From contig JABSRN010000007.1 in the NCBI GenBank assembly GCA_013214025.1, positions 62,001 to 126,000 of the forward strand: 64,000 nt of DNA, written 5' to 3'. Source of the stretch: Polyangiaceae bacterium. Its GTDB lineage: Bacteria; Myxococcota_A; Polyangia; Polyangiales; Polyangiaceae. Made by a program: the position numbers and the translations under genes. A model generated the notes under the pieces. It searched no databases, had not been told where the DNA came from, and saw only the letters and a program-made list of their open reading frames with translations. Numbering within the stretch: the stretch's first letter is position 1; each line of letters begins with the position of its first letter. This document shows, one piece after another, positions 4,411-50,163 of the stretch.

Positions 4411-4450
4411 GGCCCCCCGCCCGCTCCTGTGCCATGAAAAGCTTCGATCG

Positions 4451-6583: not shown

Positions 6584-6612
6584 AGCCGCGCCGACTCAGC
6601 TGGCTCTCAAGA

Positions 6613-7695: not shown

Positions 7696-7784
7696 CGTAG
7701 CCTAGGACTTAGACGTCAATCGGCATGCCGGCAAGGCCTGAGCTGTGGCGGATGGGCGACTCGCCCCGCTAGCTGGCAGCGTTA

Positions 7785-8597: not shown

Positions 8598-8664
8598 ACC
8601 GTAGCTGTACTGAAACTGCCCCCTGGCTTGAAGAAAAATCCCCAGAGTCAGCGATTCCCAGCAC

Positions 8665-8696
8665 TGCGGCCGAGATCACTTGCGGCCGAGATCACT
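8665..8696. repeat. Two exact 16-base tandem copies
   Basis: TGCGGCCGAGATCACT occurs at 8665-8680 and 8681-8696. It lies in the 165-base gap between uppP and the DUF962 gene, which holds no gene that I can see. Confidence 0.85.
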
Positions 8697-8762
8697 TGCG
8701 ACGCCAGTGGGGGCAACTGCCGCTGAGCCGGTTTTTTCCGGAAGCCGAATCAAAAACGCCGC

Positions 8763-9167: not shown

Positions 9168-9347
9168 CAGGCTTTCCTCCCAACGACGTACTTATCACGC
9201 TCCGAGCCGTGATCCAACGTCGGAGCCCGGCGGGGTCAACGCCCTCTCCCCAACTGCTTACGGGGCAGCCTATCGTCCAGAAATTATCTCCGAGATGCCG
9301 CTGCAGTCCGCTAGTCAACGAGGCTATGTGTTTCATTGCGGAGCTGG

Positions 9348-9914: not shown

Positions 9915-9921
9915 GGAGTCG

Positions 9922-11517
9922 TTAGCGGACGGCAATAGGAACCTCCTCAGCGCCGAGCGCTTCGCGAGCTTTGGGGAAGCGCACAGCGAATCGTGCTCCC
10001 CCCAGAGCGCTCTCCCCTGCTTCAATGGTACCCGAGTGCTCCACGATCACCTTCTTGACGATGGCTAGTCCCAAGCCGGTGCCCTCGGCTTTGCTGGTTA
10101 CATAGGGGTCGAACACTCGGGCTCGATGATCTTGAGGGATGCCGGGACCGTCGTCCTCCACCGCAAAATACACATAGTCTCGATCCGAACCGGCTGTGAT
10201 TCGAATGGTCCCGCCGGCTTTCCCGTCCCCCGATACGGCTTGGGAGGCGTTCCCGATAATGTTGATCAGACAGCGACGCAACATCTGGCGATCGAGCAGT
10301 ACTGGAGCCGCCCCGCTCGGGCGTTCATACTCCAAACCAACTCCTGCAGACAGCAGTGGGGCTTCGCCATCCTCCATCTCTCGGCTGGACAGGCCCAGCT
10401 GTCCGTATTGATCGGCCAAAAATTCGAAGAGATCGTCCGCTTCAGGTCGAGACTCCGACAGCCGAGCGAAGTCTGAAAAATCGCCCACCAAGCGCCGCAG
10501 GGTCCCCACTTCCGCTTCCACAATCTCAAGAGTCACATCGAGCAATTTGCGATAGCTCTCATCCGCGTCGGGATAACGCTGATGGATCTCTTGAACCGCC
10601 AACTGAATCGGCGTCAGCGGGTTCTTGATCTCATGGGCCAAGCGTCGAGCCATTTCCTGCCAGGCAGCGATTCGCTCCATATATTCGAGCCGGGCCCGCG
10701 CGTCCTCTACTTCGCCGACCATGCGGTTGAAAGCGACGGCGAGATCCGTGATCTCATCTTGCCCACGTTCTTCAACCCGGATGCTCATGTCGCCGGCGCC
10801 CACCAGTCGCGTTGCCGAGGCCAGCTCGCCGATACGACTCGAGACGCCACGGGCTAATCGAGTGCCGACGCCCATCGCCGCGAGAATCGTGATTCCGAGC
10901 AGCAATCCGAAGGCGAGCAGATAGCTTTCTTCGTCGTGCTCGCGCCGACTCTCCACGGTGGCGTACTGATCCAGGAATCGACTCATTTCGTCTCGCTGTT
11001 CGAAACGAGCCTTCTCCGCCGCGAAGACGACCACCAGGGTGGCCTCCGAATCCCCCCCCAGGGGGCGAGGAACCAGCAGGCGATTCTCGCGGGCCGGCTC
11101 GAGAGGTCGGCCGCGGTCCGCCTCCGCAATCACCTCACCGTCCTTTTCGACTCCCACGCTCACCAAGCTCGGGTTCCGCCGAATCTGATCTTCTAGAATA
11201 GTTTCGAGCTGGGCGTGGTCCGCCTCCCGCACTGCCAGCCGAAGTTCGCTGTTCTCTGCCAGCGCCGTTGCTTGGTGACGCATACGCGACTTCACCTCTT
11301 TGGCCAGCTCCTTGTACAGCTCAAGAGACGCGTCCAATCGCTCCCCGATTTCAGGAAGGAAAAACCGGGCCGAACTTTGCCGGACCATGCTCTGGGCGAG
11401 CAGCAAGGAGACGAGCACCGGGATCAAGGCGGTGAGCAACAGCGCCAGATTGATGCGCCGGGCAATTCGGCTGCTCTTCACTCCCCCGCCCCCCACCGAA
11501 GGGTCGGCACCCGCCAT
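9922..11517 (-). CDS. NtrY-like membrane sensor histidine kinase
   Basis: 531 residues. Order: N-terminal membrane helix (about 22-43), a periplasmic sensor region of about 150 residues, a second helix (about 199-219), HAMP domain (220-275), dimerisation/phosphoacceptor domain with His295 in RRLAHEIKNPLTPIQLA, and an ATP-binding domain with the DDGPGI and GTGLGLAIV boxes. The phosphoacceptor box is of the NtrY type, usually paired with NtrC-family sigma-54 regulators. No response regulator is adjacent; the partial sigma-54 regulator at the far end of the window is too distant to call a partner. It is followed by the TlpA-like gene after 7 bases. A GTG 12 codons downstream is an alternative start. 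Confidence 0.92.
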   Translation of the reverse strand: MAGADPSVGGGGVKSSRIARRINLALLLTALIPVLVSLLLAQSMVRQSSARFFLPEIGERLDASLELYKELAKEVKSRMRHQATALAENSELRLAVREADHAQLETILEDQIRRNPSLVSVGVEKDGEVIAEADRGRPLEPARENRLLVPRPLGGDSEATLVVVFAAEKARFEQRDEMSRFLDQYATVESRREHDEESYLLAFGLLLGITILAAMGVGTRLARGVSSRIGELASATRLVGAGDMSIRVEERGQDEITDLAVAFNRMVGEVEDARARLEYMERIAAWQEMARRLAHEIKNPLTPIQLAVQEIHQRYPDADESYRKLLDVTLEIVEAEVGTLRRLVGDFSDFARLSESRPEADDLFEFLADQYGQLGLSSREMEDGEAPLLSAGVGLEYERPSGAAPVLLDRQMLRRCLINIIGNASQAVSGDGKAGGTIRITAGSDRDYVYFAVEDDGPGIPQDHRARVFDPYVTSKAEGTGLGLAIVKKVIVEHSGTIEAGESALGGARFAVRFPKAREALGAEEVPIAVR

Positions 11518-11631
11518 GCCAGCAAAACGACAGCTTCAAGCCGGATCGGACAATCTTGATCAGAGACGGACAGTTTCATAAGCAATATGGCGAGTGAGTG
11601 AAGCAGGAGGAGGGAGTATACTGCCAAGACC

Positions 11632-12960
11632 ATGCCGGAACCGAGCAGCTTGAGCCTCACCAGCGACCTAATCGATTACATCAACCGCTCCCCCTCCCCC
11701 TACCACGCAGTATCAGAAACCCGCCGAAGACTGCTCGACGCCGGTTTCAGCCAGCTGGACGAGCGCGAAAGTTGGAATTTGAAGCCGGGGGGCCGGGCCT
11801 TCGTGATTCGCGCTGGCGGGACCATCGCCGCATTCATCACCGGAACACTCGGGCCCGAGGAATCCGGCGTCCTAATGATCGGCGCCCACACAGACTCTCC
11901 CAACCTGCGGGTCAAACCACTGCCGGACATAAAAAATCACGGCTACGTGCAAGTGGGCGTCGAAACCTACGGCGGGTTGCTACGCAGCACCTGGATGGAC
12001 CGCGATTTGTCCATCGCCGGACGGGTCGCCACCAGTAAAGGCGATATCCACCTGGTGCGTTTTGATTCTCCGCTGTGCCGAATATCCAACGTCGCGATCC
12101 ACCTCAATCGCACCGTCAACACTGACGGGCTCAAGCTCAACCCCCAGAAACACCTCATCCCCACATTGGGTTTGGATCACGAAGATGAAGACGGACTCCG
12201 TGGTTTGTTAGCCCGTCGTCTGAACGAAGAAGGCATCAACGCGGAAGCTGACACCCTGACCGGGCTGGAACTCTGCCTATACGATACCCAGGCTGGCACT
12301 CTGGGCGGCGCCGACAACGAATTTATCAACACCGCGCGACTCGATAATTTGGCGTCCTGTCATGCCGCGCTGACGGCCCTCCTGGACTCCGGCGAGGCGA
12401 CCGAACACACGCGAATGATCGTGCTTTACGATCACGAAGAGGTCGGCAGCCAAAGTCAGGCCGGTGCCAAGGGTCGTTTCGTACTGCATCTGTTGGAGCG
12501 AATCGCTCATGTGTACGGCGACGTCACACCCGAGAACCAGGCCCGCACTGCCGCTCGCTCGCTTCTCGTCAGCGCCGACATGGCCCACGCGGTGCACCCC
12601 AATTACTCCGACAAACACGACCAGCAGCACCTCCCGAAAATGGGGCAGGGCCCCGTTATCAAAATCAATGTGAACCAATCCTACGCAACCGATGCTGTGG
12701 GCACGGCGTTCTTTGAGAAGGCCTGCCAAACTTGCGGATTCAGCGCCCAGCGCTTCGTCTCTCGAAACGACATGGGCTGTGGCAGCACCATCGGACCGAT
12801 ATCGGCTGCCAGAATCGGAATCCGCACGGTGGACGTCGGCAACCCGATGCTCAGTATGCATTCTTGTCGAGAAACGGCAGGAACTGGCGATGTCGCCAAG
12901 ATGATCGCGGTGATGACTCACATTTTACGGGCTGGGAATGTGCCACCGCCGGAAGCTTGA
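11632..12960 (+). CDS. apeB: M18 family aspartyl aminopeptidase
   Basis: 442 residues, the usual length. M18 enzymes are cytoplasmic dodecameric zinc aminopeptidases that prefer acidic N-terminal residues. The metal ligands sit in the GAHTDSP motif (His near 84), in ARLDNLASCHA, in the DHEEVGS motif, in SADMAHAVHPNY and in the final MHSCRE block. The overall pattern closely follows the Pseudomonas ApeB type as I remember it. It is divergent from the histidine kinase gene (114 bases apart) and convergent with the decayed SprA-like gene, whose end lies 5 bases away. Confidence 0.95.
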   Translation: MPEPSSLSLTSDLIDYINRSPSPYHAVSETRRRLLDAGFSQLDERESWNLKPGGRAFVIRAGGTIAAFITGTLGPEESGVLMIGAHTDSPNLRVKPLPDIKNHGYVQVGVETYGGLLRSTWMDRDLSIAGRVATSKGDIHLVRFDSPLCRISNVAIHLNRTVNTDGLKLNPQKHLIPTLGLDHEDEDGLRGLLARRLNEEGINAEADTLTGLELCLYDTQAGTLGGADNEFINTARLDNLASCHAALTALLDSGEATEHTRMIVLYDHEEVGSQSQAGAKGRFVLHLLERIAHVYGDVTPENQARTAARSLLVSADMAHAVHPNYSDKHDQQHLPKMGQGPVIKINVNQSYATDAVGTAFFEKACQTCGFSAQRFVSRNDMGCGSTIGPISAARIGIRTVDVGNPMLSMHSCRETAGTGDVAKMIAVMTHILRAGNVPPPEA

Positions 12961-12965
12961 TCGGC

Positions 12966-13636
12966 TCAGGCTACGAATTGTAGGCTCGCCGGGCGGATTT
13001 CGCCGGATCTTCCGTTCCCGCGCAGCGCAAGAGAGCGCGCAGCTGCGTTGTTCAAGCCCGACTCCGATCCCTCAGACTCGTCGGACTTGGCGGCGGCGTC
13101 ACTCCGGGCTTCCGAACGGGTCTCGTATTCCTCTATTCGCGCTTTGTTTTCCTCGTAACGCTGAGCGACGATTTCGGCCCGAGCTTTCTGAGCTGTCGTC
13201 GCTGCACTCGAGGCGACCGAGCGGTCCGCTCCGAGCGGGTTCGCCGGCGCGCTCGCCTCCCGCTGAACCACCTGCATCTTGCGCAGAGTCGCCTGATGAT
13301 CCCCCGCGACAACAGACACGTCGATCGACACTTCACCGCCCACCGCATAGCGCTGGTTGTCCGGACCCCGAGCCCAGCCGCTCCGAAGACCTTCACCGGT
13401 CGCTCCTCGATCCCCTCGCTTGGATTGCCCAAGTGAGCGGCCTCGGAATCAGAACCACTGGCGCCGCCACCAAAGAGCGAGCCCGCGTCGGCAGCACTTG
13501 CGGAGGCGCTCGCTAAGCGGCGAGCGGCTTCCCCGAATTGGACGACAGCGGCAACTGGTTGAGCAGTGTGCGGGGGAGGCCTCCGTCGGTCCGTGGCTGC
13601 TGTACTCGCCGGGCGCTGACAGTCCGCGGAAGCCAT
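12966..13636 (-). pseudogene. Decayed SprA-like metalloprotease gene
   Basis: The C-terminal half is clearly of the SprA-related family (PF12118 as remembered): it reads GPDNQRYAVGGEVSIDVS, then DHQATLRKMQVVQ, then ADRSVASSAATTAQKARAE. The intact family has an HExxH zinc motif some 30 residues before this block. That segment is absent, and the N-terminal half (13636 to about 13400) is in a different reading frame, with a TGA upstream in the C-terminal frame. I read this as a deletion plus frameshift that removed the catalytic site. A 125-residue protein from a GTG at 13343 could still be made. A sequencing error could explain the frameshift but not the missing motif. Confidence 0.65.
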
Positions 13637-13822
13637 CGAGGCGATCCGTAGGCGAAACAGAGTGAACCAAATCGGTACACCCAAATAGTGGGCTGCTCTG
13701 ATCTCTGAGAACGGTTGGGAGCCGTTGCTCTGAAACAGCTAGCACAACAACGGCACAGACCGCCTCAAACCGGCACAGATCGCCACGAGATCGCACGAGC
13801 CGGCACGAGCGGCCCCCGCCGC

Positions 13823-15145
13823 TCACCCCATATTCATCATCCCAATCAGGGCGAACAGGAAGAATCCCAGGCCGAAGCACAAGAACATGGCGAGCCACCC
13901 CCAGAAGCCCAGGCTCTGGACGGGGGCCGTTCGTGTCGCAGAGTCGGACTCCAGAGAGGAGCGCTCCATGTGCTCACGCAGACGACTCTCCGCGCGCTTG
14001 GCGCCAAACAGAAACAGCACCCAACCCAGCAGACCCGCCACCAGGCTGAATCCCCCCGCCAGCGCCTTCGCTCGAAAGCGACGCCTCACACTTTCATCCC
14101 GCGCCGCCGAGGCGCCGTTCAACAATAGGTGGTCCCGAAGGTCCCAGTTAAACGGCGCCTCCAACGGCTCAGAGGAGTGCAGCGGCCAGGCAACAAATCC
14201 CATGGATTGACTATCCGCCTCACTGGAGACCGCCGCCCAGAGGGGGCCCGATACACTGGGAAGACTGACCGAACCGACAGCGCCGCCGGCGTCATCCGCA
14301 CGCAAGCGCACCACGGCGCCGAATTCACGTTGCTGCAGACTGAGCAGACTTAAGAACGCGCGCTCGCGGGGCACCGGCGAACGAATGGTCAATTTATTAC
14401 CGGTTCTCTCCACATGGATAGCTCCCACACGGATTGCTAAGCGGCGATGAAATCGACCCGTCTCGCCATCAGCGTTCACCTCCACAGTGGCCGACACCAC
14501 ATGTTCGAAGGGGGCGATATGAGCCGAGCTACGGCCCCGGGCGTCGGTGGCTGACACCGGAGCGAGCAATTTCGCTCCATCCAGCTGGACGCTAACGCTG
14601 GCGCCCGGCACCGGCTTCCCGTCCCGCTGCACCAGTATCCTCAGCTCGTCTGGGAACGGTGCGGCGAAGGTGCCCCGCTCCGGGGCGACTCGGACCTGGA
14701 GCCCGGGAGTGGGGCCGTTGCTGGCCCAACTCCCATGCGCCTGACCCTCGCCCACCCAATGTTTGCGGCTCAGAGTGACCCGCCCACGGGCCAAGGCACG
14801 CAGCGGCTGCCCCGCAGACACCTCCAGCTCATAGGACTGGCTACTGGGGCTCTTCAGTACGAATAACGCCTCCAGCGTCCCGGAGTCGTCGGAGACGCCG
14901 CTCCAATCCAAAGATTCCGTAGGGGTCTTCAGTTGGACGCGAACAGCCTTCCCGGGCAGTCGAGCGACAACCCCCTGGTACTCCTCGTTTAGGAGTAGCC
15001 TCAGAGCAACCCGATCGACGGCCTCGGAGGTGCCGCCGTACACCCGAGCGGACTGCACGGGCACAGATTTGCCGACCACAAATAGCGCGAAGGCGATGAC
15101 CGCCATGGTCAGCGCCGGCAAGCTCAGCAGGGCCGTCCGAATCAC
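13823..15145 (-). CDS. Membrane-anchored protein with Ig-like region, function unknown
   Basis: 440 residues from a GTG at 15145; an ATG at 15202 would extend it into the divergent gene and was rejected for that reason. Residues 5-25 are a membrane helix. Residues 160-270 resemble an Ig-like/carboxypeptidase-regulatory fold (segments such as PDELRILVQRDGKPVPGASV). Two further helices lie near 345-370 and at the extreme C-terminus (about 410-435). Most of the chain should therefore be outside the cytoplasm. Similar large Ig-containing membrane proteins are common in Myxococcota, but I recognise no specific family. It is divergent from the zinc-ribbon membrane protein. Confidence 0.7.
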   Translation of the reverse strand: MIRTALLSLPALTMAVIAFALFVVGKSVPVQSARVYGGTSEAVDRVALRLLLNEEYQGVVARLPGKAVRVQLKTPTESLDWSGVSDDSGTLEALFVLKSPSSQSYELEVSAGQPLRALARGRVTLSRKHWVGEGQAHGSWASNGPTPGLQVRVAPERGTFAAPFPDELRILVQRDGKPVPGASVSVQLDGAKLLAPVSATDARGRSSAHIAPFEHVVSATVEVNADGETGRFHRRLAIRVGAIHVERTGNKLTIRSPVPRERAFLSLLSLQQREFGAVVRLRADDAGGAVGSVSLPSVSGPLWAAVSSEADSQSMGFVAWPLHSSEPLEAPFNWDLRDHLLLNGASAARDESVRRRFRAKALAGGFSLVAGLLGWVLFLFGAKRAESRLREHMERSSLESDSATRTAPVQSLGFWGWLAMFLCFGLGFFLFALIGMMNMG

Positions 15146-38690: not shown

Positions 38691-39431
38691 TCAGGCTCCT
38701 TCTTTTGCCACGGCCTCCGCCCGGCCCGCGATCGCTGCGGCATCCCCCGCATAAAAGTGACGGATCGGCTTGAGGTCGTCGTCCAACTCGTAAATCAGCG
38801 GGGCGCCGGTCGGAATGTTCAACTCGACGATGTCTTCGTCGCTGATCTGATCGAGATGTTTGATCAGCGCACGGAGGCTATTGCCGTGAGCGACCAGCAG
38901 TACCCGTTGGCCCGCGCGCAGGGCGGGAACGATCTCACTCTCGTAGTACGGCAAGAAGCGATCGACGGTGTCCTTGAGACACTCCGAGCGTGGGACTTGG
39001 CTATCGTCGAGATTTGCGTATCGAGGATCCTTGCCCGGGTAGAGCGGATCCGTCGTGTCCATGGGCGGCGGCGGCGTGTCGTAGCTTCGGCGCCAAACCT
39101 TGACCTGGTCGGCGCCATGTTTGTCCGTCGTCTCTTGTTTGTTGAGCCCTTGCAAGGCACCGTACATGCGCTCATTCACGCGCCAGCTTCGATGCACCGG
39201 CAGCCACATCTGATCGAGCTCTTCTAGGGAGAGCCAGAGTGTCTTGATGGCGCGCTTGAGCAACGAGGTATGGGCGACATCAAACTGATACCCCTCTTTC
39301 TTGAGCAAAGCACCCGCGGCCCGAGCCTCCTCGATGCCCTGTTCACTCAGCGGGACGTCCACCCAACCGGTGAAGCGATTCTCTTTGTTCCATTGGCTCT
39401 GGCCGTGGCGCAACAACACGAGGATTTTCAT
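38691..39431 (-). CDS. gpmA: 2,3-bisphosphoglycerate-dependent phosphoglycerate mutase
   Basis: 246 residues, normal length. It interconverts 3- and 2-phosphoglycerate in glycolysis. The catalytic motif [20 protein letters not shown] lies at 6-25 with the phosphohistidine near residue 9, and the second His sits in [13 protein letters not shown]. The ATG at 39431 is preceded by GGAG at 6 bases. This housekeeping gene is set between the beta-barrel genes and the periplasmic part of the Glt-like cluster on the same strand, and may have its own promoter at about 39490. Confidence 0.97.
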
Positions 39432-39486
39432 GGCATCTCCTAGCGGACAGCGATCCGTCCGGTGACGGCTCGTGACAACTCAACTC

Positions 39487-39492
39487 ATTATA
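39487..39492 (-). promoter_or_regulatory. Possible -10 box for gpmA
   Basis: The minus strand reads TATAAT here, about 56 bases before the gpmA start, a striking match in such GC-rich DNA. No recognisable -35 lies 16-18 bases upstream, so this is tentative. Confidence 0.35.
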
Positions 39493-39566
39493 GTGAAGCC
39501 CCGGAGGGCCGCCCCCATATGGCGAAAACCGACCGCCGAATCAATCGGCATTTCTCGCGACCGGGA

Positions 39567-40565
39567 CTAAAACCAGAGTACAGCGAGCGATGCCGCCACG
39601 CTCAGGATCCCCTCGTCGCTGGCTAGTCTCGCCTCGCCGGCATTGAGGTACTGACGGAGCGAATCGTCGCCCCAATGTTGAACATCTTGCTCGCCGGAGG
39701 TCCAGGCTCTTGACACCGTCAAGAAACCACCCAGCGCCCATTGATCGCTCAGCGAAAAATCATAGCCACCGAGCGCAGTCAGCGAGTAGCCGTCAGATTT
39801 CAGAACGCCGTCTTCCGTTCCCTCTTGTTTTGGCGTCCTCAGCACGAAACTGGCGAAGCTGGCTCCTCCCCCCAAGTGCCAGCCACTATCGTCAGACGGA
39901 TACCAATCCACCACGGGCCCAACGCTAGACACTGCCATGCTCCAGCCATCGTCCACTTCCGTCTGATCCGGGGGCCGTCCATCATCGACAGTTGACTCGA
40001 TCTCGGCGCCACCGAGGGCACTGAACATTGCCGCGACCACCAGACCCTCGCCCACACCCCAGCCCAGCGCCAAATGGATATTCCCCGCGCCTGTCGTGTA
40101 CTTGCGGCGACCAGCAACCAACGCCAGGGCCTCATCACCATGGATAGCCTGGGAAGACGCCGCGCTGATCGAACCCAAGCCCAATCCCAGACGTGCGTAG
40201 AAACCGCTGCGGGCACGGAACTCCGGCGGTGGCGGCGGCGGTGGCGGTGCCAGGGGCTGCTGCCAAGCCCTCTGCGCGTGCACCGGCGGTCCCGCGACAA
40301 GCGGGTAAACCGGTGGCGGCGGTGCCGGGGCGACAGCGTTGCCAGCGGAGGCAGAGGGAGCCACAGTCGGAGGCGGCGCAGCGGATTGAGCCGGGACCGG
40401 CGTCGGCGGGGGCAGCGGCGCAGGACTCATGATGGGCGGCGGGGCGTAGCCCCGAATCGGCGCAGGCGGTGGAGCCGAGGCTTGCGCCAACCCAAGGCTG
40501 GTAGCAGTCAGCTGCGCTGTGCAGAGCCCCACACAAAGTTCTACGCGAAGGTATCGAGTGCTCAC
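39567..40565 (-). CDS. Outer-membrane beta-barrel with long Pro-rich N-terminal arm
   Basis: 332 residues from a GTG at 40565. After a signal peptide (about 1-30) comes a Pro/Ala-rich segment of about 85 residues (31-115), with runs such as PPPPPPPP. The C-terminal two thirds has alternating strands of an outer-membrane barrel (SGFYARLGLGLGSISAAS) and ends AVLWF, a good barrel C-terminus. The gene follows the TIGR04565-type barrel gene after 9 bases. In Myxococcus two barrel proteins (GltA and GltB) accompany gltC, which suggests a related arrangement, but the sequence alone does not prove it. Confidence 0.7.
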   Translation of the reverse strand: MSTRYLRVELCVGLCTAQLTATSLGLAQASAPPPAPIRGYAPPPIMSPAPLPPPTPVPAQSAAPPPTVAPSASAGNAVAPAPPPPVYPLVAGPPVHAQRAWQQPLAPPPPPPPPEFRARSGFYARLGLGLGSISAASSQAIHGDEALALVAGRRKYTTGAGNIHLALGWGVGEGLVVAAMFSALGGAEIESTVDDGRPPDQTEVDDGWSMAVSSVGPVVDWYPSDDSGWHLGGGASFASFVLRTPKQEGTEDGVLKSDGYSLTALGGYDFSLSDQWALGGFLTVSRAWTSGEQDVQHWGDDSLRQYLNAGEARLASDEGILSVAASLAVLWF

Positions 40566-40574
40566 GGCGCGCCG

Positions 40575-41258
40575 CTAATTGGTAAAGGGAATGAACACGC
40601 TGAGTCCACCCAGCGCCATGACATCGTTGACCACAAACTCTTCGCCTAAGGGGGCGCGGATGGCACGAACTTGATCCCGCACGTCGAGTCGCAATGCCAT
40701 CCACTGCGCTAGATGAAACTTCATTCCGAACCCGCCGGAGCCGGCAAGACCCAAACTACCCGATTCGTCGGCAGCTCCAGCGCCCACGGATAGGTAGAAA
40801 TCGAAGCGACCAATTGGCCCACCGAACCAACGGACCTTGCCGTAGGCCATCGACCAAACGAGATGGCCCATGTACATCTCGATGGTCTCCTGGGAGACGA
40901 TCGTGCCGAGGGTCGGGTTCGCGGCCTCAAAGGCCTCGACGAGCCGGAAGCGCCGTTCGCTACGCAAATAAGAAGCCTCAAGCCCCAGATCTTCCGTGAA
41001 GTGGAAGGTGTAGGCCCCTCCGTAGGCGGGAGCTCCATCGGAGTAGTCACCGGCGTACCATCCGCCCATGCCAGATAACTCATGGCGCAGCGCCTTCTTG
41101 AACACCCGCGGGACGACCCCGCGATAGGCTCGCTTGCCGACAAGCTGCTCCTTGAGCGCCTCGTCAACGCACTGGGCGTTGGCGAGTCGTGGATCGGCGA
41201 TAAGCCCGAAGGCAAAACTCGCAATCACAGAGAAGAAGAGAATGCTCCGAGCTAACAA
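40575..41258 (-). CDS. Myxococcal outer-membrane beta-barrel (TIGR04565-like), GltA/B-like
   Basis: 227 residues from a TTG at 41258; no in-frame ATG precedes the conserved region. Signal peptide about 1-28. The segments KRAYRGVVPRVFKKALRHEL, AYTFHFTEDLGLEASYLRSE, IGRFDFYLSVGAGA and the ending GGLSVFIPFTN match the beta-barrel family that is frequent in Myxococcota and includes the gliding proteins GltA/GltB as I recall. It heads the minus-strand cluster, and the 131-base gap to the divergent gene at 41390 must contain its promoter. Role in an envelope complex is an inference. Confidence 0.78.
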   Translation of the reverse strand: MLARSILFFSVIASFAFGLIADPRLANAQCVDEALKEQLVGKRAYRGVVPRVFKKALRHELSGMGGWYAGDYSDGAPAYGGAYTFHFTEDLGLEASYLRSERRFRLVEAFEAANPTLGTIVSQETIEMYMGHLVWSMAYGKVRWFGGPIGRFDFYLSVGAGAADESGSLGLAGSGGFGMKFHLAQWMALRLDVRDQVRAIRAPLGEEFVVNDVMALGGLSVFIPFTN

Positions 41259-41389
41259 GGCGTCTCATCGGATATCATAGGTTCGCCTTGATTGACTCGG
41301 ACAGTTTGTGCCGGATAATTCCAGTGCTCCATGCCGGGAGGAGAATAGCCGACGCCCACGAGTCCCCAATAACACCCTATCCCACTGAA

Positions 41390-42769
41390 ATGAACGAGAA
41401 AATTACCACACCGAGGGGCAGCCGCAAACCCATGGGCCGACCTTCCGGGCGGAAGGCAACCGGCCGCGCCAGCTCGCCGGTAGGGGTTGCTGCCACGCTG
41501 ATGCTTCTCGCCAGCCCCGTCTCGGCGGACTGCCGTACCGGGACAGCCACCGCACAGTTGAGCTGCGAGCTGGCGCTGAAGCTCAAGAGCCTCCCAGGCA
41601 AGAGCCTGCTCAACGCCTCGTCGTCTCCCGAGCACAACGCGACTTCCAAAATCGCGACGGAGCTTCAGTCTGAACTAGCCAAGCGCCTGAACGCCCAACC
41701 CGCACCCCGGATGATGAGCGTCGATGAGGCCACCCGCGAACGAGGCTACGCGCAGGTGATCCAACTATCCCCAGTACTCGACCGGCGCGGACTCACGTTG
41801 CGCGCCGACGTCTACCCGCGGCGTACCGTGTGGGATCGAGTACTGGGTCCCGCCAAGACCATCGCGAGCTACGAAGCCTTTCGCCGCCGTGATCCGCACT
41901 TGCGACAATTCCTCACGGCCATTGCTCTCACCGCGAGTCCACCCGTAGGCTTGAACATCAAGTTGAACGGACCCGTTTCCCTCGCCTGCGGCTCCGCACC
42001 AATCGAGTCAACCGCCGGCAGACTCAGCGAGCCGACCCTCCGCTCTGAGCTCCAGATCGCGGTCGTCGAACGACATCAGATCAGACTCTTTGCACTCCAA
42101 GGCAAAACACTGACTCGTCTCGCATCGGTGCCTTGGAAGCGGCTATCAGGTGTTCGCGGCACGCCGTTTCGGCAGCCTCTCACTGTAGCGACACTCAGCG
42201 ACGGGCTCCTACGCGTCGGAACGAGTGACCGCAGCGACGGCTTGGATCTCAGCTCGAAGCTCGAAGTGCTCAAGCGCTATCCGGATCTTCTGCCCGTCGG
42301 CGCGAAGCACTGTGCCAAGCTCAGCTTCCCCGGTCTGGTCGGACCTCAGCCGTGTGAGAGCCGGGCGCTGCGGAAGGGGCAACGACCGCAGGACGCCTTG
42401 GCTAGCCTTCAACTCACCGACGACGACGGCACCGTGAGTGAGCTCATGGTCGGGCGTGACTCCGTGACACACGTGGCCATCGTCGCCCACAACGGGCGAG
42501 AGTTGTTTCGCCTAACCAACACAGGCGCAGCCTTGGCACTCGGCGATCTCAACGGTGACGGCAACGCCGAGCTCGTCAGTAGCGCCAACACTCAGCTGCC
42601 AATCGAAGACGCATTAACTGTGTCGCGCAACGAATCCGGCAAGGCCACTCTTGTCTACCAAGTCCCGTTCCCTTCGGGCGTGCAAGCCATCGCGAGTTGC
42701 CCCACCCAGGGCGACCGGCAGGCAGCCATCCTCGTCGCATCCGGAGGGCGCCTATGGCGACTCCACTGA
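41390..42769 (+). CDS. Secreted protein with FG-GAP-like end, function unknown
   Basis: 459 residues from the ATG at 41390; a TTG at 41288 would give a longer, unlikely N-terminus. A basic N-region and hydrophobic segment (about 30-48, ending VSADC) form a long signal peptide. The middle has no family I recognise. The C-terminal part contains LALGDLNGDGNAELV, the calcium-binding loop pattern of FG-GAP/VCBS propeller repeats, within about 180 residues of repeating beta-strands. The stop overlaps the start of the solute-binding-like gene by 16 bases, so the two proteins are made together and probably act together. Confidence 0.78.
   Translation: MNEKITTPRGSRKPMGRPSGRKATGRASSPVGVAATLMLLASPVSADCRTGTATAQLSCELALKLKSLPGKSLLNASSSPEHNATSKIATELQSELAKRLNAQPAPRMMSVDEATRERGYAQVIQLSPVLDRRGLTLRADVYPRRTVWDRVLGPAKTIASYEAFRRRDPHLRQFLTAIALTASPPVGLNIKLNGPVSLACGSAPIESTAGRLSEPTLRSELQIAVVERHQIRLFALQGKTLTRLASVPWKRLSGVRGTPFRQPLTVATLSDGLLRVGTSDRSDGLDLSSKLEVLKRYPDLLPVGAKHCAKLSFPGLVGPQPCESRALRKGQRPQDALASLQLTDDDGTVSELMVGRDSVTHVAIVAHNGRELFRLTNTGAALALGDLNGDGNAELVSSANTQLPIEDALTVSRNESGKATLVYQVPFPSGVQAIASCPTQGDRQAAILVASGGRLWRLH
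42743..42747 (+). promoter_or_regulatory. Ribosome-binding site deciding the start at 42754
   Basis: GGAGG, 6 bases before the ATG at 42754, inside the end of the upstream gene. It supports this start over an ATG at 42697. Confidence 0.8.
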
Positions 42770-44073
42770 GCGGACGGTTGGGCCCACAGATAGGCCGGCG
42801 CGTCTGGCTCGCTGCGAGCCTCGCTACCCCCCTGACATTGGCAATGGGCCGCACGCCGGTAGGCGGGCATCTCCGTTGGGACCTACCATGGCAGCTCAGT
42901 GGCCTCGATCCCCACTCCCCTTACGATTTCGCTTCGGCCTTGTTCGCCCCCGCAGTGTTTGATTCGCTGTACGATTTGGACGGCCAGGGACGGCCCTACC
43001 CCAGCCTGGCAGTGGATGCGCCGGTGGCCTCCAACGGAGGACTGATGATTCGCCTCCGCAGCGGTCTCCAGACCTCCCGGGCTCGCTCTCTGAGCGCCCG
43101 GGAGGTCGTGCACTCGCTCCAGAGAGCCAAGAGCGCCGGTAATCGTTGGCTAGGAGCACTCGGCGAGCCCACGCTAGTTCCTGGAGATCCGCTCGCGGTG
43201 CGATTCTCCACGAGTAATTCGCGACTATTGACCCAGCGTCTTGCCAGTCCGCTCGCTGCCATCGCGAGCCGTCAAAGTACCGCCATTCGCCCGGACGGCA
43301 CCGGTAGCTTCCGAGTCAGCGGTGTGGGGAGACAGCTCGTGCTCGTCCGTAATCTACGCGCGGCGAGAGGTTCTGCGTTTCTGGAGAGAATGAGCATCCG
43401 GTCGGTGGCCGATCTCCGCCAATCCCTCAAGAGCTTTGAGTCGGGCAGTACCGACATTGGGTGGCTGGGCGCGGGGCTTTACAAAGCGAGATCTCAATCC
43501 ATCAAGTTTCAACTCCCTTCGCCCGCTTGGGTCGTGCTGAGGACCGGAAAAGACGCCGGCGCTTGGGGAGCACCGGGGGCGGCGCAGCTACTGAGCAACG
43601 CTGTGCCAGCAGCTCAGCTGGGCGCCTGGGGCGTGCGGCGTGAGTTCTCCCCCAACGAACAGACTCGCTGGGGCGGGTATGCCACAACCATCCTGGTACC
43701 GCGCAACGAACCCCAGCTGCTCGGCATCGCCCAGTCTGTGGCCGGCGCGCTAAGCACGGCCATGGCCCCGCTAACGGTCGACACCACGGCGAACATCGCT
43801 GCCAAACGCCAGCGACGGGACTATTCCCTCATGCTTGATGTCGTTCGCAATCCCCGGTTCTTGGGGGGAACTGCCGAGGCTCTCTACGCCGCCGACGGAG
43901 CCCGGCTAACCCGGGCAGGGAGCGCTGCCACGAAGAACGAATACGAGCTCACGCGGCTTCTGCGACTGGGTGTGCTGGGGGAACTCGAGTTCCGTGGCGC
44001 CACAATCCCCAGCATGCACGGCATCAGCCAGCCAGCGATGGGCGATTGGTGGCTGGCTCCCAGCAAGCCCTAA
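42754..44073 (+). CDS. Solute-binding (SBP family 5)-like protein
   Basis: 439 residues. The N-terminus has a probable export signal (RRVWLAASLATPLTLAMG). The body follows the pattern of peptide/nickel-binding proteins of ABC transporters: LSGLDPHSPYDFASALFAP, VFDSLYDLDGQGRPYPSLAV, then IRLRSGLQ and ARSLSAREVVHSLQRAK. It is shorter and more diverged than usual (about 500-600 residues), and no permease or ATPase gene lies nearby, so it may bind a ligand without transport. It overlaps the FG-GAP-like gene by 16 bases. Convergent with the diguanylate cyclase gene, 7 bases away. Confidence 0.75.
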   Translation: MATPLSGRLGPQIGRRVWLAASLATPLTLAMGRTPVGGHLRWDLPWQLSGLDPHSPYDFASALFAPAVFDSLYDLDGQGRPYPSLAVDAPVASNGGLMIRLRSGLQTSRARSLSAREVVHSLQRAKSAGNRWLGALGEPTLVPGDPLAVRFSTSNSRLLTQRLASPLAAIASRQSTAIRPDGTGSFRVSGVGRQLVLVRNLRAARGSAFLERMSIRSVADLRQSLKSFESGSTDIGWLGAGLYKARSQSIKFQLPSPAWVVLRTGKDAGAWGAPGAAQLLSNAVPAAQLGAWGVRREFSPNEQTRWGGYATTILVPRNEPQLLGIAQSVAGALSTAMAPLTVDTTANIAAKRQRRDYSLMLDVVRNPRFLGGTAEALYAADGARLTRAGSAATKNEYELTRLLRLGVLGELEFRGATIPSMHGISQPAMGDWWLAPSKP

Positions 44074-44080
44074 CGCCGGC

Positions 44081-44617
44081 TCATACGCTCGCTATACGTT
44101 CGCTCAAGGTGCTGAAATCAACCGATGCCCGATCTCGCCCCCCGCCCTTCGCCGCATAGAGAGCAGCATCCGCCCTGGCCACCAATAGCTCACGAGACAC
44201 TTCAGCTCTGGGAGTTAAAGCCGAGACACCGATGCTCACGGTCAAGTCATGCACGTCGTTACCGCTCCGGAAGGGGTCGCGCCGAACCGCCGCGAGTAGG
44301 CGCTCGGCTGCGCCGAGTCCGCTGATCTCGCCGGCGTCTCGCAACAACACGGCGAATTCTTCGCCGCCCACCCGGAACGCGCAATCTTCGGCGCGCAAGG
44401 AGCCCTCGATAGTCTGGGCTAGATGAGCCAACACTTCGTCGCCCCGACGATGCCCAAATTGGTCGTTCACACGCTTAAAATGATCTGCGTCGATCATCAG
44501 CAGGCAAAAAGAATTCTTATGACGACGCGAATGCGCCATTTCACGATCTAGGTAGGCGTCGAACTGGCGGCGGTTGGCCAAACCGGTGAGCGTATCGGTG
44601 ACCGCGAGCAGTTCCAT
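44081..44617 (-). CDS. Diguanylate cyclase (GGDEF domain alone)
   Basis: 178 residues, a complete GGDEF domain that makes cyclic di-GMP from two GTP. It begins TDTLTGLANRRQFDAYL, has the active site GGEEF near residue 84, and keeps the inhibitory I-site RAED exactly five residues before it, so it should be active and product-regulated. It has no sensor of its own: the receiver gene upstream is in the same frame, and its TAG stop is followed by CAG and then this ATG. In usual PleD/WspR-like proteins these are one polypeptide. AAGGAG lies 12 bases before the ATG and could allow reinitiation. Confidence 0.88.
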   Translation of the reverse strand: MELLAVTDTLTGLANRRQFDAYLDREMAHSRRHKNSFCLLMIDADHFKRVNDQFGHRRGDEVLAHLAQTIEGSLRAEDCAFRVGGEEFAVLLRDAGEISGLGAAERLLAAVRRDPFRSGNDVHDLTVSIGVSALTPRAEVSRELLVARADAALYAAKGGGRDRASVDFSTLSERIASV

Positions 44618-44620
44618 CTG

Positions 44621-45073
44621 CTACAGCCGCTCCTTCACCGATAGCTGCCGGCCCCGCTGCTCAAGCAACGCCTTCACTCGGGCTTGGAGGACGGGCCCGC
44701 GGAACGGCTTTTCCAACTGAGCTGAGGCACCCAGTTGGATGCCCTCCACGACGTCTTCTTCTCGGTTCGCATGCGCTGAGAGCATTATCACAGGAATATC
44801 CGATGTTGCCGATCCGGCACGCAGCCGCTGCAGTACTTCAAAACCTGCGACGTCGGGCATCATCACATCGAGAACCACGACGCCGACCGAGCGCGCTCGG
44901 TCTCTGACCAGCTCCAGTCCAGCAGCGCCGCCAGGCGCATCCCACACATTCATGCCTCCGCGCTCTAGCCATCGCCGTACCAACAAACGGGTGGTATCGT
45001 CGTCGTCGATCACGACCACGTGCAGCCCTAGGTCTAGGATCGCGGAACTCGCTGGCTCGGATGCATCTCTCAT
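44621..45073 (-). CDS. Response regulator receiver protein (amber-terminated)
   Basis: 150 residues from the ATG at 45073. The receiver fold is intact: acidic cluster VVVIDDDDTTR, phosphorylated Asp69 in VVVLDVMMPD, Ser99 and Lys122 in QLEKPF. The protein ends VKERL-stop, in the middle of what would be the coiled linker to a GGDEF domain. The codons read CTG TAG CAG ATG GAA, and the frame continues straight into the cyclase gene. Without the TAG the product would be a receiver-GGDEF protein of about 330 residues. The frame is open upstream to 45178, but that part overlaps the neighbouring lipoprotein gene. No kinase is adjacent. Confidence 0.85.
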   Translation of the reverse strand: MRDASEPASSAILDLGLHVVVIDDDDTTRLLVRRWLERGGMNVWDAPGGAAGLELVRDRARSVGVVVLDVMMPDVAGFEVLQRLRAGSATSDIPVIMLSAHANREEDVVEGIQLGASAQLEKPFRGPVLQARVKALLEQRGRQLSVKERL

Positions 45074-45149
45074 GAGGCCGGGCTCATATATACCCCTATC
45101 TAACAAAGCGCGACCGCGGCAGGACGAAGGGCCCAGGTGGCCGAAACGC

Positions 45150-45923
45150 TTAGGGTTTGCGGTGCGTCGCCGCGCCACCGCCCCCAGGTAGTGTCTCCGG
45201 GAGAGCTACTGAGCCACCGGACTTGATGTACGTAACCACGAGGGAGCTCAACTTCGCATGGGCTTTCACGCACGCGCGGCTCACGTCCCCCATGGTCACG
45301 CCCTTGCACTCTTTTCGGCGAGCTCGATAGGCGGCGGTGATGCCCTCGTCTTCTCGCAGGGAATCCCGAACCCCCGGTTCCAACCAGTTCCATTTGATCG
45401 GGGCCTGCTTCGCGGACGGAGGTTTCGTTTTCGTCACCTCACCGCCCTCGAGGCTCACACAGGCTCCGTTCCAACGAAGAGCGTCGAAGCCTTCGTCGGA
45501 ACCGCTGACGGAAAATCCACCTTCCTGGGTCTTACGATGGCGCAGCACCAAGACTTCTTCATCGAAGGCCAGCTCTCCTTCGACCGACGCGCCACCGGAC
45601 GCATTCCATGCCCGAATCTTGCCTCGCAGATAGACTCGCGTCCAAGGCGTGTCCGGTCCAAACATCCAAAGAGCCACACTGGAGTACACTCCGTCGCATA
45701 GCTCAGATACGAAGCGTGCCGGAGGAAGACAATACCCGTCTGCGTCTGTCTTCGCGCATTTGGCGGGGATCTCAACCGTTTCGGCGACGGGCTCCTCGGA
45801 CTCTGTCGGAGCGCCACGATCCACGGGCCCCGCGGACGCAACATCGACCGTAGGCGCTTTCAGCTCGGTCGCCGTCGCGCCGCCACAAGCAACAGTCCAG
45901 GCCGCGCCAAAGAGCACGCACAT
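45150..45923 (-). CDS. Probable lipoprotein, function unknown
   Basis: 257 residues from an ATG at 45923. The N-terminus MCVLFGAAWTVACGG is short for a lipoprotein signal but ends in a lipobox-like TVAC; upstream codons STRT in the same frame would supply a positive charge, so the start could be further upstream (open to 46154). A Thr/Glu/Pro linker follows. The conserved-looking core has four Cys (AKCAKTDADGYC, ELCDGVY, NGACVSLEG) and motifs FDALRWNGACVS and PIKWNWLEPGVRDSLRE. I recognise no family. It lies upstream of the receiver gene (76 bases), possibly in one transcript. Confidence 0.65.
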   Translation of the reverse strand: MCVLFGAAWTVACGGATATELKAPTVDVASAGPVDRGAPTESEEPVAETVEIPAKCAKTDADGYCLPPARFVSELCDGVYSSVALWMFGPDTPWTRVYLRGKIRAWNASGGASVEGELAFDEEVLVLRHRKTQEGGFSVSGSDEGFDALRWNGACVSLEGGEVTKTKPPSAKQAPIKWNWLEPGVRDSLREDEGITAAYRARRKECKGVTMGDVSRACVKAHAKLSSLVVTYIKSGGSVALPETLPGGGGAATHRKP

Positions 45924-46214
45924 CGTGCGTGTACTACCGACGCCACGGGTGCGAATCGCACTTGATGTAGATACTGCAGCCTCGGCCGCTGCTTGCCCGT
46001 CACCGTTCCAAAAATACCTCACGCGCCACCTCGTCCTTAGGCGGTCAATCCGCCGTGCCGAGAGAGTGTAGCGAACGACGGCCGCCCACTGACGGTCGCC
46101 GGTATCTTCTAGTGCTGACGTGACACTCAACCGGGAGCGGAACGCGACGGGCAAAACCCCGTCTACGCTCCGCCGTTTCGCCAGCGTTGTGCCAAAACGA
46201 GCAGCTGCCAGACG

Positions 46215-46895
46215 TCAGCCCTCCCCGCTGAGCGCCTTTTCGTCGTAGTAATCCAGCTTGTGCAGAGGCATCAGGACACTGCTGAGCAAGTTCAACAGGT
46301 GAGATTCCATGCGCTTATAAAATCGCGTTCCTATAGTGATGTAGACCACCGTCGCGGCTGGGTAATCGCTCTTTGCCACATCGCGAATGAGCTGGTCGCA
46401 GCGCTTGGTTACCCCTCTGCCCTCGACGGTGAGCTCACGGGCGCGGTCAACATCCGATTCGCTGTAAACACGAGCGGCTTCTTTGACCAGTACCACTACC
46501 GCCCGAGCCACTTCACGCAGTTCACCCACCAGAGCATCGTCCGGCAATTCGCAGGGCGCGAAACCGGGCACCTCGGATAGGTTCTTGGCGTAGTCGCCGA
46601 GGCGCTCCACGTCCTTGACCAAGCTCATCAACAGCAGGGCGTAGGGGACATCCCGACGCACCGGACCGGTCATATGAGCCACCACAGCCTTACGAATGCG
46701 TCGCTCCAGCTTGTTCACCTGCACGTCTTTTTCATACAGCGCAGTTCGTTCTTCCGGCGTTGGTTTTTTGCCCCAATACACAGCGCTCGACTCCAGGACC
46801 ATTTCCTGCGTGAGCTCGAGCATTATCGTGAAATTTTTCGACGCCGATTGGAGTGGGAAATCCCCCGTAAATACGGCCAATAATTGTTTGAGCAA
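46215..46895 (-). CDS. PhoU-like regulatory protein
   Basis: 226 residues, all helical, with a PhoU-type pattern of acidic and aromatic residues (LLLMSLVKDVERLGDYAKNL contains the E/DxxxD metal site). PhoU proteins bind metal ions and restrain phosphate transporters. It starts at TTG (46895), supported by GGAGG four bases upstream. It is 15 bases downstream of the Na/Pi cotransporter gene, and in many bacteria a PhoU domain is fused to the NptA type transporter, so here they probably form a transporter plus regulator pair. It lacks the tandem repeat of full-length PhoU and may dimerise. Confidence 0.85.
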   Translation of the reverse strand: MLKQLLAVFTGDFPLQSASKNFTIMLELTQEMVLESSAVYWGKKPTPEERTALYEKDVQVNKLERRIRKAVVAHMTGPVRRDVPYALLLMSLVKDVERLGDYAKNLSEVPGFAPCELPDDALVGELREVARAVVVLVKEAARVYSESDVDRARELTVEGRGVTKRCDQLIRDVAKSDYPAATVVYITIGTRFYKRMESHLLNLLSSVLMPLHKLDYYDEKALSGEG

Positions 46896-46899
46896 AACC

Positions 46900-46904
46900 C
46901 CTCC
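46900..46904 (-). promoter_or_regulatory. Ribosome-binding site supporting TTG start of the PhoU-like gene
   Basis: The minus strand reads GGAGG here, four bases before the TTG at 46895. No ATG or GTG in the frame has a comparable site. Confidence 0.65.
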
Positions 46905-46910
46905 TCTTCA

Positions 46911-48113
46911 TCAAATCATGCGAGAGACGAAAATCAACAGGGCCGGAAGCCCATAAAATAATAGCAGGACGTAGACCAAAGCGAGCGAACGAGACCGCAC
47001 CGCCAAAGCTGCCAGCTTTTCTGCCAATTTCAACGGAATTTCTCGAATCGCCTCCACTGGGTAGACCAGGGCCATGCCCGTCAGATTGAACAACAGGTGC
47101 ACAATAGCGATCTGAATCGCCAAATGCGCGGTCTCCGCAGGGGCGGCCATCGACGCCAGGAGGGCCGTCACGGTGGTGCCGATATTGGAGCCGAGCGTTA
47201 CGGGGAACGCCTGGCGCAGCGTGATGATACCGGCGCCGGCCATCGGAACGAGGACGGACGTCGTGATCGAGCTGGACTGCACCATTACCGTGACCACCGC
47301 CCCGACAATGATGGCGACAACAGCGCTCGAGTCCAGGGACCGAGTGATATAGGTCTGCATCCGAGTCGCGGCCAGGACCCGGAGAGTCCGCACGATCGCG
47401 CCCAGGGATCCGAAAATGATGCCCGCTGACATCACGATCAACAGCACCGTCGCGACGGTCTGATCGTCACTCAGCGCTTGGCTTAAACTTTGGACGGGCT
47501 CAAGCGCCGCCTTGGTGGCCACCTTCAGCGGATTCGACATCTTGCCACCACCGCCCAGGGAGCCCACGAAGCCTGCGACCACATGACTGCTTTGGGAGAG
47601 AAAGCCGGTCATGATTTCAAGTGGCAGCAACACCGCCACCACCAAGAAATTAAAAAAATCGTGGCAAGTGGCGGCAGCAAAGGCGCGCTTGAACTCCTGG
47701 GCGTGGCCCATGTGTCCTAGCGACACCACCGTGTTCGTCACCGTAGTGCCAATATTCGCTCCCATGATCATGGGGATGGCGTTCGCCACCGGCAGAGGAT
47801 TCTCCGGTGCGGCGACGAGAGCCACAATCATCGAAGTGGTGACCGACGAACTTTGCACCAAGGTGGTCGCCAGAATCCCGACGACCAATCCCATGAAGGG
47901 ATTTTCAGTTTGGTGAAAAAACGTGTGTAGCGCTTCTTTGCCGAGGCCCTTGAAGCCAGTCCCCATGCCCCGGATGCCGACCAAGAAAATGAACAGCAAG
48001 AAGAGGACGAAAATAAACCGTGTCCACGCTTCTCGCTTCCCGATTTCACCGGGAGGTATCGAACGCTGGGCAGCGGACGGTAACGTCATAACTCTCAGCC
48101 CGGGTACAGCCAT
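46911..48113 (-). CDS. Na/Pi cotransporter family protein
   Basis: 400 residues (or 392 from the ATG at 48089). An integral membrane protein with two inverted repeats, each containing the signature QSSS: TLVQSSSVTTSM near 85-96 and VMVQSSSITTSV near 280, followed by the GANIGTT and GSNIGTT motifs. This is the NptA/PNaS family, sodium-coupled phosphate uptake. The PhoU-like gene lies 15 bases downstream. The N-terminal 30 residues are hydrophilic. No phosphate-specific ABC genes are in the window. Confidence 0.93.
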   Translation of the reverse strand: MAVPGLRVMTLPSAAQRSIPPGEIGKREAWTRFIFVLFLLFIFLVGIRGMGTGFKGLGKEALHTFFHQTENPFMGLVVGILATTLVQSSSVTTSMIVALVAAPENPLPVANAIPMIMGANIGTTVTNTVVSLGHMGHAQEFKRAFAAATCHDFFNFLVVAVLLPLEIMTGFLSQSSHVVAGFVGSLGGGGKMSNPLKVATKAALEPVQSLSQALSDDQTVATVLLIVMSAGIIFGSLGAIVRTLRVLAATRMQTYITRSLDSSAVVAIIVGAVVTVMVQSSSITTSVLVPMAGAGIITLRQAFPVTLGSNIGTTVTALLASMAAPAETAHLAIQIAIVHLLFNLTGMALVYPVEAIREIPLKLAEKLAALAVRSRSLALVYVLLLFYGLPALLIFVSRMI

Positions 48114-48195
48114 CCCCCAGCGGGCGCAAGCCTTTGCCGCGCGTGATTTCTAAATGTCGCAGCGCCGGCAAGGAGCGCTGGTCCGCCCAATTCGG

Positions 48196-50025
48196 CTATT
48201 CAACCGTCACTGTTTTTGCGAGGTTTCTGGGCTGATCGATGTCGGTGCCCTTCAAATCTGCAATATAATAGGCGAGGAGCTGGAGCGGCACGACCGTCAG
48301 CAGCGGTTGTACGACATCAGGCGCCACCGGCACCTCCAGCACGTGTTCTGCGATCTTCGCGGATTCCGGATCGCCGGCGCTAACGATGGCTATGACTTGG
48401 CCGTCCCGGGCGCGAACTTCCTGTAAATTGGACAGGGTTTTTTCGTATTGACTGTCCCGAGGCATAACGACCGCCACAGGCATGTCCTCGTCGATCAGCG
48501 CGATCGGGCCATGCTTCATTTCCCCAGCAGCATATCCCTCCGCATGGGCGTAGGATATTTCCTTCAGCTTCAGGGCCCCCTCCAGTGCGGTCGGAAATCC
48601 CAGTCCTCGGCCGAGAAACAACATGTGCTGCACATGCTGATAGCGCCGGGCCACCTCGAAAACCTTGTCTTTACTCTCAAGGGTGATTCGGATCTTCTCG
48701 GGGACCTCGACCAGGGCCTGCAGTACGTCTCGCCCCTTGTCGGCCGAGAGGGTGCCCCGGCGGCGCCCCAGATACACCGACAGCATCAACAGTGCGACCA
48801 GTTGAGCCGTGTAACATTTCGTCGATGCCACGCCGATTTCAGGTCCAGCGTGGGTGTACAGCGTGCCATCGGCAGCGCGCGGGATGGCACTTTCCAGCAC
48901 GTTCACCACGCTAATGACTCGGGCTCCCGCTTCCTTGGCCGACTTCATTGCCGCCAAGGTGTCCGCGGTTTCTCCCGACTGACTCACGGCTATCACTAGA
49001 TCTTCGGGACCGAAGACCGGCTCACGATAGCGGACCTCGCTCGCTAGCTCAGCATGGGCGGGAACTCGGGCGAGCTGCTCCATCCAATACCGCCCCGCCA
49101 AGCAAGCGTGATAGCTGGTGCCACAAGCCAACAGGCACACCCGCTTGATCTGTTTGGCCGCCGCTTCATCGATGCCCATTTCTCGGGGCACAACGTCGCC
49201 GTTCTCAAGATCCAGCCGTCCGCGCAGCGTGTCCTCAACCGCACGCGGCTGGTCGAAGATTTCCTTGAGCATGAAGTGCTTGAAGCCGCCCTTCTCTGCC
49301 TGCATCGGGCTCCAATTGATCCGCTTGGGCTCGCGCGTCACCGACTCGCCCTCCAAGGTCTCAATCTTGATCCCGTCGGCGCTGAGCTGTGCCAGCTCAC
49401 CATCTTCAAGGAAGATGACATCCCGGGTGTGCTCCAGCAGCGCCGGAATATCGCTCGCGCAAAGGCTTTCGCCGTCGCCGACGCCCAACACCAAGGGAGA
49501 AGCATTCCGGGCGACCACCAGCTGCCCCGGCTCACTCTCACTCAGCACCGCCAAGGCGTAGGCGCCCCGGATCTGACGGAGTGCAACGCGTACGGCGTCC
49601 AGTAGACGTTCACTGTCCTTCAGCGCTCGGTGGATCAGGTGAGCGACGATCTCGGTGTCCGTATCGCTAGAAAACTCGATCCCTCCCGAGGCTAGCTCCG
49701 CCTTCAGCTCGAGGTGATTCTCGATAATGCCGTTGTGAACGACCGCCACCCCCCCGGCGACATGGGGGTGCGCATTCTCTTCGCTGGGCCGGCCGTGGGT
49801 AGCCCACCGGGTGTGGCCCAGGCCCGTGGTGCCCTTCAACGGGGATTCCTGCAGCACCGAGGCGAGGTTCTTAAGCTTGCCGACAGCGCGAACAACCTGA
49901 AGTTGCTTGCCATCGTGGACCGCGACACCCGCTGAGTCGTACCCCCGATATTCCAACTTCCGCAACCCGTCGACCAGGATGCCAGCCGACTCTTGCGAGC
50001 CTACGTAACCTACAATTCCACACAT
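48196..50025 (-). CDS. glmS: Glutamine-fructose-6-phosphate aminotransferase
   Basis: 609 residues. GlmS makes glucosamine-6-phosphate, the first step to UDP-GlcNAc for peptidoglycan and lipopolysaccharide. The start at 50025 is chosen because Cys must be residue 2 (MCGIVGYVGS; catalytic after Met removal), and because GGAGG lies 5 bases before it. The glutaminase domain (HTRWATHG, NEDENAHPH-like SEENAHPH) is followed by two SIS domains and the C-terminal PRNLAKTVTVE. It is downstream of the ATP synthase genes on the same strand. I see no glmS ribozyme in the 138-base leader. Confidence 0.98.
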   Translation of the reverse strand: MCGIVGYVGSQESAGILVDGLRKLEYRGYDSAGVAVHDGKQLQVVRAVGKLKNLASVLQESPLKGTTGLGHTRWATHGRPSEENAHPHVAGGVAVVHNGIIENHLELKAELASGGIEFSSDTDTEIVAHLIHRALKDSERLLDAVRVALRQIRGAYALAVLSESEPGQLVVARNASPLVLGVGDGESLCASDIPALLEHTRDVIFLEDGELAQLSADGIKIETLEGESVTREPKRINWSPMQAEKGGFKHFMLKEIFDQPRAVEDTLRGRLDLENGDVVPREMGIDEAAAKQIKRVCLLACGTSYHACLAGRYWMEQLARVPAHAELASEVRYREPVFGPEDLVIAVSQSGETADTLAAMKSAKEAGARVISVVNVLESAIPRAADGTLYTHAGPEIGVASTKCYTAQLVALLMLSVYLGRRRGTLSADKGRDVLQALVEVPEKIRITLESKDKVFEVARRYQHVQHMLFLGRGLGFPTALEGALKLKEISYAHAEGYAAGEMKHGPIALIDEDMPVAVVMPRDSQYEKTLSNLQEVRARDGQVIAIVSAGDPESAKIAEHVLEVPVAPDVVQPLLTVVPLQLLAYYIADLKGTDIDQPRNLAKTVTVE

Positions 50026-50030
50026 AGTGT

Positions 50031-50035
50031 CCTCC
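50031..50035 (-). promoter_or_regulatory. Ribosome-binding site deciding the glmS start
   Basis: GGAGG on the minus strand, 5 bases before the ATG at 50025, which makes Cys2 the first catalytic residue. An upstream ATG at 50037 would add four residues before it. Confidence 0.8.
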
Positions 50036-50163
50036 ACCGGACTCTAACGCGGATAGAGCTAGCTGCCAGAAGCAATTGAGTCCGCTCGCTCCCCGACTGG
50101 ACAACACCCGACGCCCGCGATCCCATTCGGTTCGCCGATCACCGTTCCGGGGAATATCGGACG

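Follow-up and report, generated by a model that had tools for sequence, protein, structure and literature searches.

The split receiver-GGDEF gene in the window, the whole 64,000-nucleotide stretch analysed here, is probably the product of a recent nonsense fission, or decay, of an ancestrally fused receiver-GGDEF gene, with probable residual expression of the GGDEF domain as a stand-alone protein. In the course of events that we propose, an ancestrally fused receiver-GGDEF diguanylate cyclase would have gained a nonsense codon in its coiled-coil linker on the window lineage. Ribosomes would now halt at this TAG and release a stand-alone receiver, while some of them may reinitiate 3 nt downstream and produce a stand-alone GGDEF domain. 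Such a protein, with the inter-domain hinge kept but the dimerising stalk almost gone, would be expected to act as a weak and unregulated cyclase.

The locus lies on the minus strand, with both open reading frames (ORFs) in one frame. The receiver ORF (44621–45073, 150 aa) starts with the ATG at 45073 and ends in the TAG at 44621–44623, which takes the place of residue 151. A single CAG codon (44618–44620) makes up the entire 3-nt gap between this stop and the ATG (44617–44615, residue 153) of the GGDEF ORF (44081–44617, 178 aa). The initial annotation had already described a TAG that splits a receiver from a GGDEF domain in one frame, followed by CAG and ATG; our coordinates and translation agree with it and add the minus strand, which had been left unstated. 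In a Pfam search, the receiver ORF matched Response_reg (PF00072, 9.3e-24) over residues 19–133, near full length, and the downstream ORF matched GGDEF (PF00990, 8e-44) over profile positions 1–161 of 161. The receiver retains the acidic cluster, the phosphoacceptor Asp (in a DVMMPD motif) and the conserved lysine of KPF, and the GGDEF ORF carries GGEEF, DTLT (the DxLT motif) and RAED (the RxxD I-site), the last being five residues N-terminal of GGEEF, which is the expected I-site spacing. The initial annotation had likewise judged both domains to look functional (Asp69, GGEEF and the RAED I-site). On the receiver side the phosphoacceptor Asp, and on the cyclase side GG(D/E)EF and DxLT, place the gene in the receiver-GGDEF class; the single polypeptide with a continuous coiled-coil linker, as in PleD/WspR-type enzymes, was not found, the TAG standing at a residue for which the orthologues have a sense codon. 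In front of the receiver ORF there is also a five-codon, out-of-frame mini-ORF (45070–45087, minus strand; ATG AGC CCG GCC TCA TGA) with GGGG before it; its TGA and the receiver ATG share bases in an ATGA, and it could be a leader or a chance occurrence.

From the homologue alignments, it is apparent that the stop falls within the coiled-coil linker helix. Taking the DxLT Asp (residue 160) as zero, the TAG stands at −9 and the start Met that follows it at −7; no gap is needed across the stop to align the window gene with the PleD linker, and solved GGDEF domains align from residues 151–162. In Rec-GGDEF enzymes activation is transmitted by the linker coiled coil, and in DgcR, whose linker helices pair in a parallel coiled coil, it is a shift of the register of this coil that relays receiver phosphorylation, with the inter-domain hinge at −3 (PMC8041772). 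In the last DgcR heptad, position e is at −3 (PMC8041772); from the axxdexx pattern we deduce that d is at −4 and a at −7. Since the stop lies inside this signal-carrying helix, the receiver is expected to be uncoupled from the cyclase. The predicted downstream product would retain the hinge and the complete catalytic domain, with the stalk reduced to one heptad. In the case of WspR, a largely monomeric stalk mutant was inactive in the assay used, and the GGDEF domain on its own was active at high expression (PMC2270323). By analogy, we infer that the reinitiated GGDEF protein would be independent of the receiver and, with almost no dimerising stalk, only weakly active and unregulated. As to how easily such an arrangement arises by chance, of the 86 single-base changes that would create a stop at other places in the frame, 12% land in the linker (residues 134–157) and 3.5% lie within two codons of an ATG; a linker stop with a nearby ATG is therefore uncommon, but not extraordinary for one gene chosen from a genome.

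A search of 59 genomes (order-level relatives and the source genome itself) for receiver-GGDEF homologues gave full-length, open-frame homologues with identities of up to 48%, and a wider family search raised the top identity to 50–51%, in G074. The initial annotation had suggested an alignment to close relatives, with a stop shared by them speaking for two separate genes. Instead, the stop column is a sense codon in all 30 homologues aligned over the linker, including the two syntenic orthologues, and the alignment is gap-free among the closest ones. Among the roughly 150 receiver-GGDEF places listed from 183 order-level genomes in a linker-centred search, an in-frame stop occurs only at the window locus. 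Apparent 'stops' in some relatives (for example G110 and G094) were found to lie at residues 321–322 and are natural gene ends.

The two syntenic orthologues (G006 and G074) are both fused with an open frame. The G006 contig has, in the order and orientation of the window, a gpm-like gene, three unnamed genes, the Rec-GGDEF gene, an upstream unnamed gene and glmS, and the G074 contig has the gpm-like gene, the same three unnamed genes and the Rec-GGDEF gene. The neighbourhoods also differ: in the window (38691–50037), PhoU and a Na/Pi-cotransporter-like gene sit between glmS and the upstream unnamed gene, whereas in G006 (4395–14580) these two are missing and extra DNA is present beside the Rec-GGDEF gene instead. 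Because the frame is open in the syntenic orthologues, the homologues and the listed places alike, the fused receiver-GGDEF gene is, by this sequence comparison, the ancestral form, and the TAG is derived on the window lineage.

Programmed amber readthrough, by which some full-length Rec-GGDEF would be made and the cyclase output tuned, is very improbable. TAG ends 16 of the 37 long non-overlapping ORFs in the window, in line with the earlier statement that it is a normal stop elsewhere in this DNA, and RF1 is present and intact (a TGA flagged in prfA is the natural gene end). A CUA anticodon was found in none of the 42 tRNAs, an absence that is not absolute as the draft is without a few expected tRNAs. 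With UAG a common stop, RF1 present and no CUA tRNA found, amber recoding is unlikely; examination of the tRNAs, the window ORFs and RF1 yielded neither a suppressor tRNA nor a reassigned UAG. A C follows the UAG, and this context is considered leaky. Full-length products have in addition been obtained from the nonsense-carrying dgcQ and dgcN genes of Shigella (PMC11327459). However, the RNA directly after the stop is not unusual, the 51- and 71-nt segments folding no better than shuffles (z −0.2 to −0.5), which speaks against a readthrough-promoting structure at that place; the wider 101-nt segment is modestly stable (z −1.9). The stop is also present in none of the receiver-GGDEF places listed for the relatives. 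Among the options raised in the initial annotation, a nonsense mutation that splits the gene thus stands, given the derived stop, and reinitiation is plausible, whereas an inherited two-gene design is ruled out by the fused orthologues and readthrough is left without positive support.

In measurements on E. coli and Haloferax, reinitiation fell off sharply with distance: 30–95% of the efficiency was retained over a gap of 2 nt, while a gap of about 14 nt cost 40–80% in E. coli and one of 38 nt nearly all (PMC10666635). An AAGGAG hexamer with a putative Shine-Dalgarno-like function (44630–44635, minus strand) lies 12 nt 5′ of the GGDEF ATG, a spacer longer than usual; motifs of this class stand upstream of 15 of 2360 codon positions (~0.6%) in seven reading frames of the window. 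Reinitiation at this ATG is made plausible by the AAGGAG, by the position of the ATG next to the stop and by the complete GGDEF domain, whose active-site and I-site motifs are retained; dgcM and dgcQ (see below) provide a direct published parallel (PMC11327459). At −7, where the window gene has its new Met, all nine of the closest orthologues in the first comparison have Ala. The notion that this column is invariant throughout was weakened once more distant homologues with Val or Leu had been added; in the 30 homologues it holds Ala, Val or Leu, and Met in none. Among 99 GGDEF contexts, Met occurs at −7 in two, of which the window gene is possibly one, and is common at −11, −4 and −2. The Met at a conserved Ala column, together with the AAGGAG, is suggestive of an adapted start, although short of proof.

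These features raise the question of whether the fission has been maintained, that is, whether selection keeps the free receiver and a GGDEF protein lacking one as two polypeptides coupled through termination–reinitiation. We regard this as unlikely, though not negligible. The in-frame ATG 3 nt past the stop, at the former Ala column, the infrequent AAGGAG motif in front of it and the conserved residues kept in both halves would be accounted for, but the Shine-Dalgarno spacing is long, Met at −7 is uncommon rather than unique, and linkers often have a Met at some other position. The genome also contains other receiver genes that are plainly broken (see below), and lineage-specific changes in the two halves are, if anything, slightly more numerous than in the closest orthologue. 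The specific form in which the receiver and the reinitiated cyclase are made in a fixed ratio, with translational coupling or an interaction in trans replacing phospho-control, is unlikely.

The constraint on the two halves was also checked. At 56 near-invariant columns defined from 19 homologues, the window gene is altered at one and the homologues at 0–6, so either the break is recent or constraint persists. With four outgroups, lineage-specific changes in the receiver number 16–20 for the window gene versus 8–10 for the closest orthologue, and in the GGDEF domain 16–31 versus 9–15; this excess may be a simple lineage rate effect. Clear erosion is seen in neither half, meaning that the stop is young or that both halves are still kept. 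The lack of erosion, like the Met at the Ala column and the AAGGAG, hints against decay. Still, we consider the locus most likely to be a pseudogene at an early stage or a case of lost signal coupling, with its second half residually expressed; as in an early-stage pseudogene, the disruption is derived and the orthologues are intact.

In addition to the locus itself, we have surveyed signalling domains across the source assembly, a 5.77-Mb draft genome in 184 contigs that is 97% complete. In-frame stops were found in 8 of its 143 receiver-domain places (nine stops, including TAG, TGA and TAA), in none of its 98 protein kinase domains and in one of its 60 HATPase domains. The receiver stops inspected by eye are within the domain, one of them (C122) close to the end of a short match. 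Receivers differ from kinases within this genome both by domain (P = 0.014) and by codon (P = 1e-4; nine stops in ~14,000 receiver codons versus none in ~24,000 kinase codons), whereas the difference between receivers and HATPase domains is not significant (P = 0.20). With a threshold of E <= 1e-12, stops are present in 6 of 113 receivers, compared with 0 of 138 in two relatives whose assemblies are of comparable quality (Fisher one-sided P = 0.008).

Several of the broken genes resemble the window gene. A second Rec-GGDEF gene (C152:58062-58941), which lies about 4 kb before the window start, has a TAG in its receiver (CCT TAG GTC) and a frameshift in its GGDEF domain. A Rec-Rec-GGDEF-EAL gene (C97:193099-194455) has a TAA in its second receiver and another exactly at the GGDEF/EAL junction, with a frameshift in the EAL domain after the junction TAA. 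The broken receivers also include CheY-like (C119, two stops) and CheB-like (C73) genes, and in one GGDEF gene (C163:110683-111044) the domain is spread over two frames by two frameshifts. The other broken receiver genes place the window split in a genome with ongoing loss of such genes, and the presence of similarly broken signalling genes elsewhere argues for ordinary decay or a recent split rather than a new coding trick. A selective loss of two-component outputs in the lineage is possible.

The same survey bears on whether the stop could be an artefact of sequencing, assembly or mixed strains, the assembly being of the metagenome type and the real gene fused. A draft in 184 contigs and a gene in which everything near the stop is intact would fit such an error. 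The absence of any stop in the kinase domains of the same assembly and the intact long genes of the window, however, point to a low assembly error rate, and the stops are concentrated in receivers. A generally error-rich assembly is thus countered by the 98 kinase domains, and we consider an error at this site quite unlikely.

Taken together, the derived stop and the broken receivers elsewhere favour a recent nonsense fission or decay. The locus offers a clear natural instance of a signalling enzyme severed precisely in the helix linking its input to its output, which invites the question of how a bare GGDEF domain behaves in the cell, and it points to a genome that sheds receiver genes but keeps its Ser/Thr kinase domains intact.

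The window gene resembles the PleD/WspR/DgcR-type cyclases in domain order, receiver residues, GGEEF, I-site and DxLT, and its linker is gap-free to that of PleD. These enzymes, however, are one chain, whereas here the linker helix is cut at −9 from DxLT, leaving the phosphorylation signal without a covalent coiled-coil route. With termination–reinitiation pairs (PMC6728339, PMC10666635) it shares a stop and a start a few nucleotides apart on the same strand. In such pairs an overlap of 4 or 1 nt with a change of frame is typical; the window pair has a gap of +3 nt in the same frame and, unlike them, derives from one ancestral gene.

The coding phenomenon itself is already known, as nonsense-split diguanylate cyclases with an adjacent start have been published. 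The dgcM (stop 177, Met 180) and dgcQ (stop 56, Met 59) genes of Shigella flexneri have an intact GGDEF domain downstream and two proteins are made, and dgcE, dgcQ and dgcN still raise c-di-GMP (PMC11327459). Like dgcM and dgcQ, the window gene has a stop, not seen in its orthologues, in front of an intact GGDEF domain, and an in-frame Met shortly after that stop, here two codons on; the dgcQ gene of at least six enteroaggregative E. coli strains (stop 312, Met 314) has the identical stop-to-Met spacing (PMC11327459). The dgcM and dgcQ proteins were demonstrated by experiment; the products of the window gene are predicted from its sequence. The N-terminal parts of these 'degenerate' genes (dgcM, dgcQ, dgcN and dgcE; PMC11327459) are also of other kinds, and the window case thus adds a receiver as the severed partner to this published kind of nonsense-split diguanylate cyclase.
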